From contig JAAYPT010000024.1 of the NCBI GenBank assembly GCA_012519695.1, positions 1-64,000 on the forward strand: DNA of 64,000 bases, given 5' to 3'. This document shows positions 8,345 to 54,366 of the stretch, piece after piece (the first letter of the stretch is position 1; every line of letters begins with the position of its first letter). The position numbers and the translations under genes are program-made. Under the pieces are notes generated by a model. That model made no database searches and was not told the origin of the DNA. It saw only the letters and a list, made by a program, of their open reading frames with translations. This stretch comes from Clostridiales bacterium. Lineage in GTDB: Bacteria; Bacillota; Clostridia; Lachnospirales; Lachnospiraceae.

Positions 8345-8436
8345 TAATTGAGGGAAATATAGTAAGAAACAGGTGGAAATTTGTCGAAAAATGCGCTATG
8401 ATAAAGGTAATAAAATATGGGATGGAGGAACCGAGG

Positions 8437-9744
8437 ATGAAGCAGGAAAAAAGTCAAAAGTTATTATTCACCCTTACCGGAATCGTAGCGTGTCCAATTA
8501 TTATAGCAGCAATCATAGCAGTTGTTTTTATGCATTTGGTAAAAGACGGAACGGTATCTGTATTGGTTGGAACAGTAGGAATCACTATTATCATGGTAGC
8601 GTTATTCGCAATACTGTTCATAGGAGTTAAATCATTTTTTAATCGTTTTAATAAGATTATAAGTAATCTTGGACAAATTGCCGATGGAACACTGACAATG
8701 GAAGAAAATAAGTTGGCAGAGCGTCAGGATGAATGGGGCGATATGATGCGTTCTATGAATGAGTTGGTGGTATCCTTTGCAAAGATTACAACAGCAATTC
8801 GAAAGGCAACAGCAGTTTTGAAAGAAGTATCCGGGGATTTTCGTACATCATTTGACAATATGAATCAATCCATGGAACATGTCAGCACAGAGGTAGAAGC
8901 AATTACAGACAACACAGTATCACAGGCAGAAAGAACTCATGAGATGGAACAAAAAGTAAATGATATGAGTAAAGCCATTGATGTGATTGCAGAGAACGTA
9001 GAACTGCTTACGAACAGTGCTGATAAAATGAAAGAGTGTAATAAGAATGCAGACAGTATCATGGAAGAATTGGTTTCTATCAGTCAGGCAAGTAGTACTG
9101 CCATAGAAAATGTAAGAAATCAGACAGATTTAACCAATCAGTCTGCAATGCAGATTCGTACAGTAACAGAGATTATTGCCGGAATTTCCAGTCAGACCAA
9201 TCTTTTAGCACTGAATGCAAGTATTGAAGCAGCAAGAGCAGGAGAACAGGGAAAAGGATTTGCAGTAGTAGCAGAGGAGATTCGTACACTGGCAGACCAA
9301 TCCAGAGAATCATCCGAACAGATTAATGCGATTGTAAATGAACTGATACAGAATTCAAATGTAAGTGTAGATATTACACAGCAGGTATCAGAGGCATTTG
9401 TAAAACAAAATGAAAAAATTCAGGAAACAGAGAGTATTTTTACGTCATTAAATACAGAAATTGCTCAGGTAGGAGAATCTATTACAGGTATTAACGCTGA
9501 GGTAGGTGGATTACAGAGCTACAAAGAAGCTATGGAAGCAGGTGTTACTGTATTAAACGATGCAGCAGAAAAGAATACAGCCAGTGCTACGGAAACAAGA
9601 GATTCTATGGAAGAATTTGAGCAAATGGTGGCTTCCTGCAAAGAATCTACAAAGCAGTTGACCGCAGTAGCAGAGGAGCTGGTAGAAAATATCAGTAAGT
9701 TTAATTTAGACACAATTAAGAAAGAAGTAGAAGAACGCTTTTAA
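8437..9744 (+). CDS. Methyl-accepting chemotaxis protein without a large external sensor domain
   Basis: A 435-residue chemoreceptor. ATG 8437 is preferred because GGAGGA (8424-8429) lies seven bases upstream; an in-frame ATG at 8398 has no ribosome site. Two membrane helices near residues 10-32 and 40-63 are separated by only a few residues (KDGTVS), so there is almost no extracellular domain. A HAMP-like segment follows, then a long coiled coil whose hairpin tip contains [20 protein letters not shown]. It probably senses through the membrane or the cytoplasm. The last 32 codons plus the terminator are duplicated at 15111-15264. Confidence 0.9.
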
Positions 9745-9804
9745 ACACAATAGAAGAGAATAATGAAAAGTCACTTTTCGTCTTAGGATGAAGAGTGGCT
9801 TTTT
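9651..9804 (+). repeat. 154-bp direct repeat, copy 1 (chemoreceptor 3' end and terminator)
   Basis: This segment covers the last 32 codons of the chemoreceptor gene and its terminator. It recurs at 15111-15264, exactly 5460 bp downstream, with five mismatches, all in the coding part (near 9699 and 9711-9717). The terminator part is identical. The two copies bracket the LuxR-type regulator and the surface-protein gene. Confidence 0.95.
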
Positions 9805-12475: not shown

Positions 12476-12544
12476 AGAACAACTGTGTATTTTAACACAG
12501 AAATTTAGTGCGCAGATATTTTAAACAAAGGAAGGTTGAGTAAT

Positions 12545-15121
12545 ATGAAAATGAAAAGGTTTTTATCGGTTGTATTGGCGGTGATTATGGTAATTACCAT
12601 TTTTCCGATGTCAGCAAATGCGGCTCCATTATATAGTAACAAAATAGTGAATGAAGGAGAAAATTATTCGGATAGCAATTTTGATATGCAATGTTGGTCA
12701 AGTGCAGGTACTTTTACAAATAACGGAACGGTAAATATTACGAATGGATTCAATTTAACATATCAGGCAACTTTTATCAATAACGGTACGTTTACATTTA
12801 CCGGTTCTTCTTCCGCATTTGATGTAGGTACAGATGCTTGCTCTTTCGTAAATAATGGAACTGCGACCATTTCCGGTTGTTATAATCTCGGTTTAGGAAC
12901 GTCTTTCATTAATAATGGAACGCTGTTCCTTAATAATATTAGCAATGCGAATGTAAGTGGTGTTTCGAATACAGGTACAATTGTTTGTGGAGAAAATATA
13001 TTACCAAGTACAATGCAAAACTTGGAAAATAAAACGACAGGTACAGGAAAGGTTATGACACAGGAAGAGTATGATAATAATTCCGGAAGTACCAAGGGTA
13101 GTAAGTATAAGATAACCTATGATTTAAATGGAGGCAATTGGAAAAGTACACCGGATGAGTCGATATTTTCGTACACTTATGATACCAATGATACAACTCC
13201 GTATTACAAAATCGGATTTGATGCTCCTTTTGATACTTTGAATCAAAATGTGGTTCGCCCAAATTATAAACTGACTGGCTGGTCTTGTGATAAGAATGGT
13301 GATACAGAACAACCTTCCCTATATTTAGATATAATGATGGAATGGAGAGCTGATATTACTTTGAAAGCACATTGGGAGCCGGAAACATATTATATTTTCT
13401 ATTATCTTGATGGTGGCACATTTCCAGAAACAGTAACAGAACCGGAAATTAAAAACAGAGGAACAGATTCGTATACTCTTTTCAATGTTGAAAGTGAAAC
13501 ATTTACACTTCCGACACCGACGAAAAGTGGCTATGATTTTGAGGGGTGGAAGCTTGGTGAAGCAACTGAGACGTATTCTTCAGTAACAATTCCAAAGGGA
13601 ACTACAGGAAATCGTGCATACACAGCAAAGTGGAAAGCAAAAGGCGATACTCCTTACAAGGTTAACGTTTATTATATGGATAAAGACGGTCAGTATGGAA
13701 TGACCCCGGATAAATCTTATAATGAAACAGGAATCACAAATACGCAGATAGAAGTGCCTGATTCCACATATGAAAAAAATGGTTTTACATATGATGAAGC
13801 AAAATCTTTGAATACGGGAACAATATCAGCTGATGGGTCACTGGTTCTGTCTCTTTACTATAAACGCAATCAGTATGACATTACATTTAAATCGTATGAT
13901 GGAACGGAAACGCTATATACATATAAAGGTTATTATGGAACTCCGATTGTTTATGGTGGTTCAACTCCTGCAATAACAGAAGAGGGATATAGTTATACTT
14001 TTAACGGATGGGCAGTTGAGAAAAAATCTGCTTACGCAATAACAAATTTGGGAACAGTAAGTGGAGATAAGACATACTATGCTGCTTTTGGAAAAGAGGC
14101 AAGGTTTTATCTGATAAATTTTGAAGACACTACTGGATTTTTGCCATTAGAGAAGTCGACAATTAAGATAAACAAGGGGGAAGATTTCACCATTAATCTG
14201 TATCTTGCAAATGAAAAGTACTATGTGGGTACAAATGAATGGATTCTGACATTAAAAAAGTTACACATTTATAATACAACAACAAACAAAGGATTAGTTT
14301 TGGGAAAAGATTTCACCTATTCTTTTGAGGGGTATGGAAAACCTGTTGTGCTGTCAATTCCTAATGTAACAGGTGACTTAAATATTACATTTAGTGCCGG
14401 ATATCATGATACACACGATTTTTCGAAGAACTATGATACGATTTTAAGGGAAACCACTTGTATACAGGAGGGAAAGGTCTTACATTATTGCTATAAATGT
14501 GGAAAAACAGAGGAAGCGGTAACACCTATTAATCCATCTAACCATACTAATCTTGTGAAAATTCAGGAGAAATTTGCCACAAATTTAGTCGCTGGAAATA
14601 TAGAATATTATTATTGCGAAGATTGTGGAAAGTATTTTAGTGACAAAGCGGGAACACGGGAAATCAATATTGCCGATACAATTCTTCCAAAACTTACTGT
14701 TAGTGAAAAAGATTATCAAATCATAGATGGCGCAGGTAGCAGTTATACACAGGAAAGTGACGGTGGTATCACAATTCGAGGAAATGGAGAGTATGATAAG
14801 TTTATAAGTGTAAAAGTTGATGGAAATGTTATTGATGAAAGTAATTACAGTGTAAGAGAAGGATCGACTATTATCACATTAAAAGCAGCATATCTTAATA
14901 CGTTATCCGTGGGAACACATGCTATTGAAATTGTATGGACAGACGGTTCTGCAATCACAAACTTTATTATTAAGGAAAAATCAGCAGATAATGCAAAAAC
15001 ACTTGAAAATACAGCGGTTACAGCTCCTAAAACGGGAGATGGCGCACCATTGGAATTTTTGTGTATAATGATTGGGCTAAGTATGGTAGGAGTTATGAAA
15101 AGTAGGAAAAAAAGCAGTTGA
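12545..15121 (+). CDS. Sortase-anchored surface protein with NGT repeats and InlB/MucBP-like repeats
   Basis: An 858-residue secreted protein. ATG 12545 has AAAGGAAGG nine bases upstream. A signal peptide (residues 1-27, ending SANA/A) is followed by short repeats built on F(I/V)NNGT (residues 50-150), as in beta-solenoids. Then come InlB B-repeat-like units with YDLNGG, YYLDGG and AHWEP/AKWKA, and a MucBP-like unit (VNVYYMDKDG). Two CxxC pairs (YKCGK, CEDCGK) lie near 655-710. The C-terminus APKTGD, a hydrophobic helix and RKK form a sortase signal. Probably an adhesin. The imperfect repeat CTGTGT/ACACAG at 12483-12500 could be an operator. The last two codons and the stop lie inside the 154-bp repeat. 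Confidence 0.85.
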   Translation: MKMKRFLSVVLAVIMVITIFPMSANAAPLYSNKIVNEGENYSDSNFDMQCWSSAGTFTNNGTVNITNGFNLTYQATFINNGTFTFTGSSSAFDVGTDACSFVNNGTATISGCYNLGLGTSFINNGTLFLNNISNANVSGVSNTGTIVCGENILPSTMQNLENKTTGTGKVMTQEEYDNNSGSTKGSKYKITYDLNGGNWKSTPDESIFSYTYDTNDTTPYYKIGFDAPFDTLNQNVVRPNYKLTGWSCDKNGDTEQPSLYLDIMMEWRADITLKAHWEPETYYIFYYLDGGTFPETVTEPEIKNRGTDSYTLFNVESETFTLPTPTKSGYDFEGWKLGEATETYSSVTIPKGTTGNRAYTAKWKAKGDTPYKVNVYYMDKDGQYGMTPDKSYNETGITNTQIEVPDSTYEKNGFTYDEAKSLNTGTISADGSLVLSLYYKRNQYDITFKSYDGTETLYTYKGYYGTPIVYGGSTPAITEEGYSYTFNGWAVEKKSAYAITNLGTVSGDKTYYAAFGKEARFYLINFEDTTGFLPLEKSTIKINKGEDFTINLYLANEKYYVGTNEWILTLKKLHIYNTTTNKGLVLGKDFTYSFEGYGKPVVLSIPNVTGDLNITFSAGYHDTHDFSKNYDTILRETTCIQEGKVLHYCYKCGKTEEAVTPINPSNHTNLVKIQEKFATNLVAGNIEYYYCEDCGKYFSDKAGTREINIADTILPKLTVSEKDYQIIDGAGSSYTQESDGGITIRGNGEYDKFISVKVDGNVIDESNYSVREGSTIITLKAAYLNTLSVGTHAIEIVWTDGSAITNFIIKEKSADNAKTLENTAVTAPKTGDGAPLEFLCIMIGLSMVGVMKSRKKSS

Positions 15122-15264
15122 CCGCAGTAGCAGAGGAGCTGGTAGAAAATATCAGTAAATTTAATTTAGATACCCTAAAGAAAGAAGTAGAAGAACGCTT
15201 TTAAACACAATAGAAGAGAATAATGAAAAGTCACTTTTCGTCTTAGGATGAAGAGTGGCTTTTT
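15111..15264 (+). repeat. 154-bp direct repeat, copy 2 (orphan chemoreceptor 3' end and terminator)
   Basis: A second copy of the chemoreceptor 3' end without the rest of the gene. It differs from copy 1 at five positions. It supplies the stop codon of the surface protein (TGA at 15119-15121) and, with its identical hairpin at 15226-15264, the terminator of that gene. The chemoreceptor reading frame itself continues in the copy to a TAA at 15202-15204. Confidence 0.95.
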
Positions 15265-19037: not shown

Positions 19038-19069
19038 GGTCCGGTCTTATGGACCGGACTTCTTTTTTA
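19038..19069 (+). terminator. Intrinsic terminator of gapA
   Basis: GTCCGGTC (19039-19046) pairs with GACCGGAC (19052-19059), followed by TTCTTTTTT. The dispersed repeat, copy A, begins two to three bases after the T-tract. Confidence 0.85.
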
Positions 19070-19070
19070 T

Positions 19071-19195
19071 ACAATAGGAAATTGCGTCCTATTGCATAAA
19101 AACGCTCCGCTAAGGAAGCACACCTCGTGGAGAAGAAATTAGTCGTAAACGACATCGCTCGGGCGCGAAAGAGTCCGACAAGCGGACTCTTTGTT
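19071..19195 (+). repeat. Dispersed structured repeat, copy A
   Basis: A GC-richer element of about 125 bp between gapA and pgk, nearly identical to copies B (30249-30376) and C (54150-54277). Predicted stems: CAATAGGA/TCCTATTG (19072-19079/19087-19094); CTCCGC/GTGGAG; GTCG-TAAA-CGAC; and a perfect 10-bp stem AAAGAGTCCG/CGGACTCTTT at the 3' end. The CAATAGGA stem has a C-G pair where copies B and C have T-A, a compensatory change. It contains no open reading frame worth reporting. Confidence 0.9.
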
Positions 19196-19237
19196 CCGCA
19201 AGTAGCGACAACAATCTTTTAGAAAAGGAGAAATATT

Positions 19238-30205: not shown

Positions 30206-30249
30206 AAAAAGCTTTGAACGATACAACGATATGGTTCAAAGCTTTTTTA
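30206..30249 (+). terminator. Intrinsic terminator of the aspartate kinase gene
   Basis: A perfect 14-bp stem (30206-30219 with 30234-30247) contains GCTTTGAAC/GTTCAAAGC and ends in a run of T. The dispersed repeat copy B starts directly at its end. Confidence 0.85.
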
Positions 30250-30376
30250 TGTAATAGGAAATTGCGTCCTATTACATTAAAAACGCTCCGCTAAGGAGGC
30301 ACACCTCGCGGAGAAGAAGTTAGTCGAAAACGACACCGCTCGGGCGCGAAAGAGTCCGGCGGGCGGACTCTTTATT
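30249..30376 (+). repeat. Dispersed structured repeat, copy B
   Basis: Near-identical to copies A and C. The first stem is 11 bp here (30249-30259 with 30267-30277, ATGTAATAGGA/TCCTATTACAT). CTCCGC/GCGGAG with an inner GAGG/CCTC, GTCG-AAAA-CGAC and AAAGAGTCCG/CGGACTCTTT follow. Differences from copy A lie mostly in loops. Immediately after it, TGTAATAGGAAAT occurs again (30378-30390), a fragment of the element's own 5' end. Confidence 0.9.
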
Positions 30377-30417
30377 CTGTAATAGGAAATCAGTTGTGAG
30401 AAAGGGAAGTGTTAATA

Positions 30418-44575: not shown

Positions 44576-44608
44576 AAAAAGACCGAGGCAGAGAACTTCG
44601 GTCTTTTT
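44576..44608 (+). terminator. Intrinsic terminator of the murE-thiN operon
   Basis: AAAAAGACCGA (44576-44586) pairs perfectly with TCGGTCTTTTT (44598-44608). The degenerate repeat copy D follows at once. Confidence 0.88.
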
Positions 44609-44655
44609 GGCAATAGGAAATTGTGCCTTATTGCATTAAAAGTGCCCAACAGGAA
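44609..44655 (+). repeat. Dispersed structured repeat, degenerate copy D
   Basis: GGCAATAGGAAATTGTGCCTTATTGCATTAAAA-type sequence matches the first stem of copies A to C with two changes on the 3' arm, after which similarity fades (AGTGCCC in place of ACGCTCC). The later stems are missing. Position right after a terminator T-tract and orientation are the same as in the other copies, so this is a decayed or truncated member. Confidence 0.7.
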
Positions 44656-54114: not shown

Positions 54115-54149
54115 GAGAGTTTTGCAATAGCAAAATTCTCTATTTTTTT
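54115..54149 (+). terminator. Terminator or attenuator upstream of the ABC transporter
   Basis: GAGAGTTTTGC (54115-54125) pairs with GCAAAATTCTC (54130-54140) with one G-U pair and a four-base loop. TATTTTTTT follows. No gene lies between the promoter at 54053 and this hairpin, so it is either a leader attenuator or the 3' end of a lost gene. Confidence 0.7.
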
Positions 54150-54277
54150 ATGTAATAGGAAATTACGTCCTATTACATAAAAAACGCTCCGCTAAGGAAA
54201 CGCACCTCGCGGAGAAGAAATTAGTCGTAAACGACACCGCTCGGGCGCGAAAGAGTCCGACAAGCGGACTCTTTGTT
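54150..54277 (+). repeat. Dispersed structured repeat, copy C
   Basis: The first stem is ATGTAATAGGA/TCCTATTACAT (54150-54160 with 54168-54178). The remaining stems match copy A, including GTCG-TAAA-CGAC and AAAGAGTCCG/CGGACTCTTT. It starts at the T-tract of the preceding terminator and ends about 90 bases before the binding-protein relic. Confidence 0.9.
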
Positions 54278-54366
54278 CTACCTGGAGTAGAATATTTTTG
54301 ATTTACATAATCTTAAATAAGTAGAAAAAATAGAAAAGAGGAAGTAAATAAGTAAAAATAATACTT

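Follow-up and report, generated by a model that had tools for sequence, protein, structure and literature searches.

Transposons of the IS91 family belong to the HUH (rolling-circle) group. The target tetranucleotides of IS91 are GTTC/CTTG, and its right terminal repeat is the end that lies 3′ of tnpA. Group IIC introns, which are retroelements, insert directly behind terminator-like hairpins, and the REP/REPIN, BOX and RUP repeats are short, palindromic, intergenic, non-coding and non-autonomous. As far as we are aware, none of the REP/REPIN, BOX or RUP families follows a terminator rule, and no miniature IS91 family of the kind reported here has been described. The origin of IS91 has been placed at its right terminal repeat (PMC3189936), and the 3′ hairpin of eukaryotic Helitrons has been assigned the function of a transposition terminator (PMC4778049). 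IS1272/TnSha1 (IS1182 family, staphylococci) inserts at secondary structures, terminators among them; it makes no target duplication and deletes the target stem-loop (PMC4923244). The present work concerns an intergenic repeat of about 127 bp that occurs in four copies (A–D) in a stretch of 64,000 nt from contig JAAYPT010000024.1 (hereafter the window). From comparison of its sequences, this repeat is very probably a miniature non-autonomous member of the IS91-family transposon group, inserted directly behind the intrinsic terminators of host genes. The assembly holding the window is referred to as the own genome; L, G and C numbers denote loci, genomes and contigs of the own genome, respectively.

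Re-reading of the window confirmed three closely similar copies (A, B and C) and one degenerate copy (D) at the places given in a preliminary description, all in the same (+) orientation. The features are as follows.

19039 to 19059, + strand: gapA host terminator hairpin, the target of copy A, with the T-tract at 19063–19068; present in most relatives in the genus with or without the element.
19070 to 19196, + strand: copy A, full length, with left hairpin H1, H2, hairpin P3 and right hairpin H4 followed by TTTGTTC.
30210 to 30242, + strand: host terminator hairpin of the aspartate kinase gene, the target of copy B, with the T-tract at 30243–30248.
30250 to 30377, + strand: copy B, full length, ending in TTTATTC.
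30378 to 30389, + strand: 12-nt sequence resembling the left end of a second element (TGTAATAGGAAA), directly 3′ of copy B.
44580 to 44604, + strand: host terminator hairpin of the thiamine diphosphokinase gene, the target of copy D.
44610 to 44645, + strand: copy D, right-truncated (left hairpin H1 only).
54116 to 54141, + strand: hairpin upstream of copy C, with the T-tract at 54143–54149.
54151 to 54278, + strand: copy C, full length, ending in TTTGTTC.

Copies A and B are 93 and 92% identical to copy C, respectively (BLAST), and copy D can be aligned over only about 38 nt, with 82% identity to copy A. By analogy with the junctions of multi-copy IS91 transposons described below, the unit would extend from about 1 nt past the T-tract to ..TTT(G/A)TTC. 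Each of the four copies starts within about 2 nt 3′ of a T-tract, and each lies behind a different hairpin; the best upstream hairpin energies are −21.0, −15.9, −17.6 and −13.0 kcal/mol for A, B, C and D, respectively. The upstream genes encode type I glyceraldehyde-3-phosphate dehydrogenase (gapA; copy A), aspartate kinase (copy B) and thiamine diphosphokinase (copy D). No same-strand open reading frame (ORF) of at least 100 amino acids ends within 1 kb upstream of copy C; its hairpin is an orphan. The gene identities bear out the preliminary assignment of copies to the terminators of gapA, aspartokinase and thiN. Copies A, B and C fold better than all of 200 dinucleotide shuffles (z of −4.2, −4.3 and −7.2, respectively); copy D has no folding excess over its dinucleotide shuffles (z of −0.15, with 86 of 200 shuffles equally good). 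Abutment of a copy by the left end of another, as at copy B, has a similar layout at L003, L010, L012 and L025.

The own genome holds dozens of copies, and the ends of several of its contigs fall exactly in the element. A BLAST search with copy C returned 62 matches and a covariance model, R1, returned 131 at E ≤ 0.1; both counts include opposite-strand hits of the palindromic left hairpin, and the weak R1 hits among the 131 were fetched only in part. R1 was built from 24 of 33 prepared sequences, with long-hairpin forms, L015 and L055 excluded. Copies were scored for an upstream hairpin with a stability of −8 kcal/mol or better ending no more than 4 nt from the start of the T-tract. This test was passed by 62 of 67 own copies, compared with 74 of 536 shuffled flanks; among the other T-runs (≥5) of the window, which still contain that of copy C, 45 of 429 passed (Fisher p ~2e-43). 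Omitted from the 67 were copies without upstream sequence (L008, L010, L011, L012 and L014), L064, whose start behind the right end of an insertion sequence (IS) is ill-defined, left-truncated copies (L066, L027, L069, L122 and L123), and L126, L135 and L140, which carry internal deletions, together with second units. For other genera, taken as one copy each, a hairpin was found in 27 of 29 cases, compared with 44 of 232 shuffles; six of the 29 copies (L080, L081, L082, L083, L098 and L104) belong to the R1 training set and, as R1 includes the T-tract, finding a T-tract at an R1 match is to some extent predetermined by the model; the upstream hairpin lies outside it. The covariance search, census and tabulation of terminator positions proposed in the preliminary description have thereby been run, and their outcome favours a preference for terminators.

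The hairpins preceding the element also include those of attenuators. When eight loci were searched with Rfam, the sequence preceding the element contained a T-box leader at L111, L058, L049 and L051 and a thiamine pyrophosphate (TPP) riboswitch at L018 in the own genome and at L046 in G022, so that the element stands behind a TPP riboswitch in two species.

Filled and empty sites were compared in the gapA–pgk region, which was read in 29 genomes of the genus (29 of 30 loci were readable). The gapA terminator is recognizable by eye in nearly all of these relatives, L178 being an exception. By eye, an element or left-end remnant lies directly 3′ of the T-tract at nine loci (L151, L153, L158, L164, L165, L166, L169, L170 and L179) and the site is empty at eight (L152, L156, L157, L161, L172, L173, L175 and L177); loci outside these two lists were left unclassified. 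Since the terminator is present with or without the element across species, the hairpin and T-tract are host sequence. The junctions as read show insertion directly 3′ of the host terminator, with the terminator intact and the orientation fixed. The occupied sites carry differing subfamily sequences, and the gapA–pgk site appears to have been hit repeatedly by insertions. At L153 and at several own loci, scars of about 12–15 nt (NNATAGGAAA) stand alone behind the T-tract and are apparently the shortest traces left by the element.

Through a repeat found at own contig ends, elements with a longer right end (..TGAGGGG..GGGGAG.TGAAGT..) were reached in G013, G017, G028 and G038. Two copies of a transposon in G013 (L191 and L195) encode a 382-residue protein that matches Y2_Tnp (139 bits) and Zn_Tnp_IS91 (85 bits). 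The left end of this transposon, TTTATAGGAAA, follows a hairpin whose tail is T-rich in both copies (by eye), and its right end, GGGGAGCTGAAGTGGGCTTGCCCACTTTGTTC, is of this longer kind and terminates in CCCACTTTGTTC; the left ends compared in G013 were TTTATAGGAAA and CTTTATAGGAAA. The right ends of miniature elements in G013 (L200 and one of two in L182) are nearly identical to that of the transposon over the last ~50 nt (by eye), and the other miniature copy in L182 has a different end. Multi-copy relatives were found in G344, G110, G197 and G322, where sets of 9, 8, 5 and 4 copies define both ends; the G344 transposase, of 393 amino acids, matches the NCBIfam model transpos_IS91 with 314 bits (cut-off 125). 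At the left junction of these transposons a host hairpin is followed by a T-tract, usually one purine and then CTTT(A/C)TAGGAAA, and at the right junction a hairpin is followed by a T-rich tail. Of these 26 IS91 copies, 21 have a stable hairpin before them, compared with 50 of 208 shuffles; the 26 are those of the four multi-copy genomes, with G032, G160, L255, L256 and single copies uncounted. Both termini are common to the element and the autonomous transposons of related genomes: ..ATAGGAAA on the left and, on the right, a hairpin with a T-rich tail, often GTTC. In the 26 junction pairs and the own copies no terminal inverted repeats or target duplication were seen by eye. GTTC, ATTC, CTTG or TTTTTA is borne at the right end as part of the element, and the left flank consists of hairpin and T-tract.

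The autonomous transposons and the miniature elements also insert behind one another. At L236 and L250 one IS stands immediately 3′ of another, next to its right-end hairpin, and at L256 the TTTGTTC that closes a miniature element is followed at once by an IS. At L064, L120, L143 and L025 of the own genome, the element starts directly behind an IS right end. As IS and miniature insertions are found behind right ends, right ends can serve as landing sites in the same way as host terminators. In G136 (L228) the IS itself starts with an H1-like palindromic left end. Taken together, the comparisons show shared ends, the same insertion rule for the autonomous IS91 transposons, and mutual targeting. 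The preliminary proposal of a non-autonomous dispersed element that targets terminator hairpins is therefore supported by the own copies, those of other genera and the IS91 copies alike.

Incomplete copies mostly keep the left end. The 41 own nhmmer rows (E ≤ 1e-7) comprise 31 near-full copies, seven without the right end and three without the left end or representing second units. Among 40 further loci, 35 retain the left end, and nearly all of those end before the right end, at varied points that are often near CTCCGCTAAGGA. Retention of the left end fits transfer beginning at that end, 3′ of the transposase gene, and simple decay is an alternative account. The less often kept end recalls the one-ended transposition of IS91 (PMC3189936). 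A recurrent internal deletion was noted at L006, L126, L135 and L140, where a left arm (..ATAGGAAATT or similar) is joined to the region before P3 (..AGTCGTAAACGAC), apparently via a shared GAAATT; the products at several loci are alike. The first hairpin is longer, mostly ATATCATAGGAAA..TTTCCTATGATAT, in a subfamily present at L025, L026, L062, L065, L070, L114, L120, L141 and L144; the loop of this hairpin carries a AAAGYGTRAAAGT-like motif that resembles the loops of other species (L051 and L185).

Several observations weigh against placing the element with the IS91 family or against the generality of the rule. No transposition event has been observed. The conserved core lying between H1 and H4 was not found inside the autonomous transposons when R1 was run over 64 loci; the eight matches obtained correspond to an adjacent element (one place, in two loci), the H1-like end at L228, and weak hits with E of 0.04–0.06. 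A search for the IS91 transposase (PF04986) in the fragmented own assembly gave no match. A repeat at own contig ends, which speaks for the assignment, shares 119 of 122 positions with the right end of an IS91-like element from phage clone MT835472; the protein of that element has 62.6% identity to the G344 transposase, and we infer that the IS91 copies of the own genome were lost at assembly breaks. Across genomes the association of the element with the transposase is weak: this gene was found in 39 of the 160 genomes positive for the element and in 19 of the 138 negative ones (odds ratio 2.0, p 0.027). The hairpin test was failed by five of the 26 IS copies, by two of the 29 copies from other genera (L092 and L103) and by five of the 67 own copies. 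Of the own copies that failed, two (L120 and L143) follow an IS right end, whose hairpin is weaker, and one (L121) fits on the opposite strand (by eye), which leaves L007 and L065 as exceptions without a convincing hairpin. Three IS91-type loci on Lactobacillales plasmids lack a clear left terminator (by eye). One IS91-type locus, on a plasmid of Fusobacterium varium, has a hairpin, a T-tract and CTTAGGAAA on the left and a hairpin and T-tract on the right (by eye). As the Fusobacterium locus fits and the three Lactobacillales loci do not, the terminator rule seems to be a property of some members of the IS91 family.

Compensatory changes in the stems had been taken in the preliminary description as a sign of selection on structure. 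H1 and H4 do covary strongly (score 0.328, shuffled mean 0.144, reached by none of 500 shuffles); the reading of these changes at the level of RNA has become weaker. The inner arms of H1 in own copies (57 of the 67) contain 15 G·T and 15 A·C mismatches. In the 29 other genera, H1 has no G·T and one A·C mismatch in 261 pairs, and H4 has no G·T, two A·C and one other in 232 pairs. The corresponding count for own copies gave two G·T, one A·C and five other mismatches of 232 for H4, and three G·T, four A·C and 20 other of 279 for H1. In both counts the register was picked by Watson–Crick pairs only, and the 29 copies from other genera were high-scoring model matches, so that wobble pairs could be missed. 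In alignment A1, H1 has four G-U and three A-C cells. H4 in the same alignment points the other way, toward RNA, with 15 G-U and seven A-C cells, nine of the 15 being in the two base pairs that adjoin the T-rich tail. As there is no consistent G-U excess among the stem mismatches, the compensatory changes do not require RNA; a palindrome required in single-stranded or cruciform DNA, or correction by template switching, is as good an explanation as RNA. Pairing of the CTCCGC arm is local in the own subfamily, and a downstream GCGGAG is a possible partner in others (by eye). The sixth of seven target-side bases before the element covaries with the right arm of H1 (50 of 57, permutation mean 33.9, reached in none of 5000 permutations). 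Guided target choice, later correction of the palindrome, or a left boundary lying further out would each explain this; tandem copies (L017 and L025) argue against the last.

That the element is a structured RNA, regulatory or released by read-through, which selection holds behind terminators and for which dispersal is secondary, is improbable. In its favour, the core is recognizable in many genera, the stems covary, the right hairpin has the G-U excess in A1 given above, and transcribed leaders harbour some of the copies, which there follow T-box and TPP attenuators. Rfam returned no match at gathering score in the whole window, and for copy C (E up to 1) only matches far below threshold. The remaining mismatch counts have no G-U preference, the ends are common to transposons, occupancy of a single locus varies from species to species, and truncated copies are numerous. 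The read-through RNA offered as an alternative in the preliminary description is accordingly not supported, given the lack of an Rfam match and the ends shared with transposons.

Either of two other mobile systems is less probable still. The own genome contains a group II intron (contig C36; L147 and L149; D1-D4-3, RVT_1/GIIM) that starts with GTGCG directly behind a hairpin and TTGTAT, a site comparable to those of the element, and right truncation of the element could reflect incomplete reverse transcription; a derivative of a group IIC intron-type retroelement, placed behind terminators by an intron-encoded reverse transcriptase, is nevertheless very unlikely, since the ends of the element match those of IS91 transposons and not those of the intron, and the window has no group II match in Rfam, where the C36 intron scores 135 bits. 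Reverse transcriptases were likewise rejected as mobilizers: the own genome has this one group II intron, the ends of which do not match, and one retron-like reverse transcriptase. The latter, on contig C109 (L148, 1378–3075), is a protein of 565 amino acids with a C-terminal extension. We give hardly any weight to an element of REP/RAYT-like or IS200/IS605 type, which would use a Y1 transposase and base-pair-guided targeting. Y1 transposases are encoded on own contigs C4 and C7, and the covariation of the target-side base with the H1 arm recalls the guide pairing of IS608 (PMC5934647); these two genes have the look of ordinary IS200 copies, by eye the 900 nt read at each showed no element, and at both of its ends the element matches IS91 transposons. 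The IS200/Y1 transposases were rejected as mobilizers, as their ends differ from those of the element (by eye). A classical miniature inverted-repeat transposable element moved by a DDE transposase was rejected, as the two ends of the repeat differ (ATAGGAAA versus a hairpin and TTTGTTC) and no duplication was seen by eye.

For a miniature IS91-family element, the following mechanism may be envisaged. A transposase from an IS91 transposon would nick single-stranded DNA 3′ of a hairpin and T-tract. The right-end hairpin of the element would be its own copy of that signal and would end transfer; in this respect it resembles the 3′ hairpin of Helitrons (PMC4778049). Host terminators, mistaken for the right-end signal, would become targets. 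Transfer would start at the left end, so that incomplete copies keep the left and lose the right, and the A-rich right arm of H1 may pair with the T-tract of the target. We consider possible, though short of probable, a wider reading in which a rolling-circle clade and its miniatures use terminator structure as a target code: hairpin and T-tract would function interchangeably as the end of transfer and as a landing site, pairing of the A-rich arm with the T-tract would help, every insertion would be a new dock, and the core would have a function of its own, in transposase capture or as RNA.

The element is widespread. Of 298 genomes sampled from the family to which the window belongs, 160 gave an R1 match with E ≤ 0.001 (R1 E-values being rough), as did 151 of 280 genera. 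A 25-nt core pattern was found in at least 119 stretches in genome contigs; among the matches listed are Butyrivibrio (B. proteoclasticus and B. hungatei), Eubacterium oxidoreducens, Herbinix and Lachnospiraceae/Eubacteriales records, and one viral contig also matched. An exact pattern of 44 nt had no match among genome contigs. From the named records with the core, the family of the window is probably Lachnospiraceae. As a separate observation, the window contains a 154-nt direct repeat, 97% identical between 9651–9804 and 15111–15264, which overlaps the 3′ ends of two ORFs (8398–9744 and 12536–15121).

The preliminary statement that no described family with this terminator rule is known calls for a correction, as the ends attach the element to the IS91 superfamily. 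Insertion at terminators has precedents in IS1272 and the group IIC introns; among the open-access papers listed in literature searches, no terminator-directed IS91 element and no such repeat of Lachnospiraceae was found. With the IS91 family (IS91, IS801 and ISCR) the element shares the transposase family and the absence of terminal inverted and target repeats (by eye). It differs from IS91 in that its target is a structure, the intrinsic terminator, rather than a tetranucleotide, and in its miniature forms of ~125–170 bp with their own conserved core in many genera. In contrast to IS1272 (PMC4923244), the hairpin and T-tract of the target stay, the orientation is fixed, and the transposase family is different. 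Group IIC introns, unlike the element, are ribozyme retroelements. From the REP/REPIN, BOX and RUP repeats the element differs in its sequence, its ends and its partner enzyme.

If this interpretation is correct, an HUH transposase would have a targeting rule that is directed by structure and tolerant of sequence. Terminator-sparing insertion would explain how dozens of copies per genome are tolerated, and riboswitch and T-box attenuators are predicted to be recurrent landing sites (six cases are described above). The hosts of the element and of its full-length relatives are gut and rumen bacteria, and a terminator-docking transposase could become a tool for integration at safe sites in gut anaerobes. 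On the wider reading given above, the ends of genes in these bacteria would be harmless docks, with each insertion adding another.
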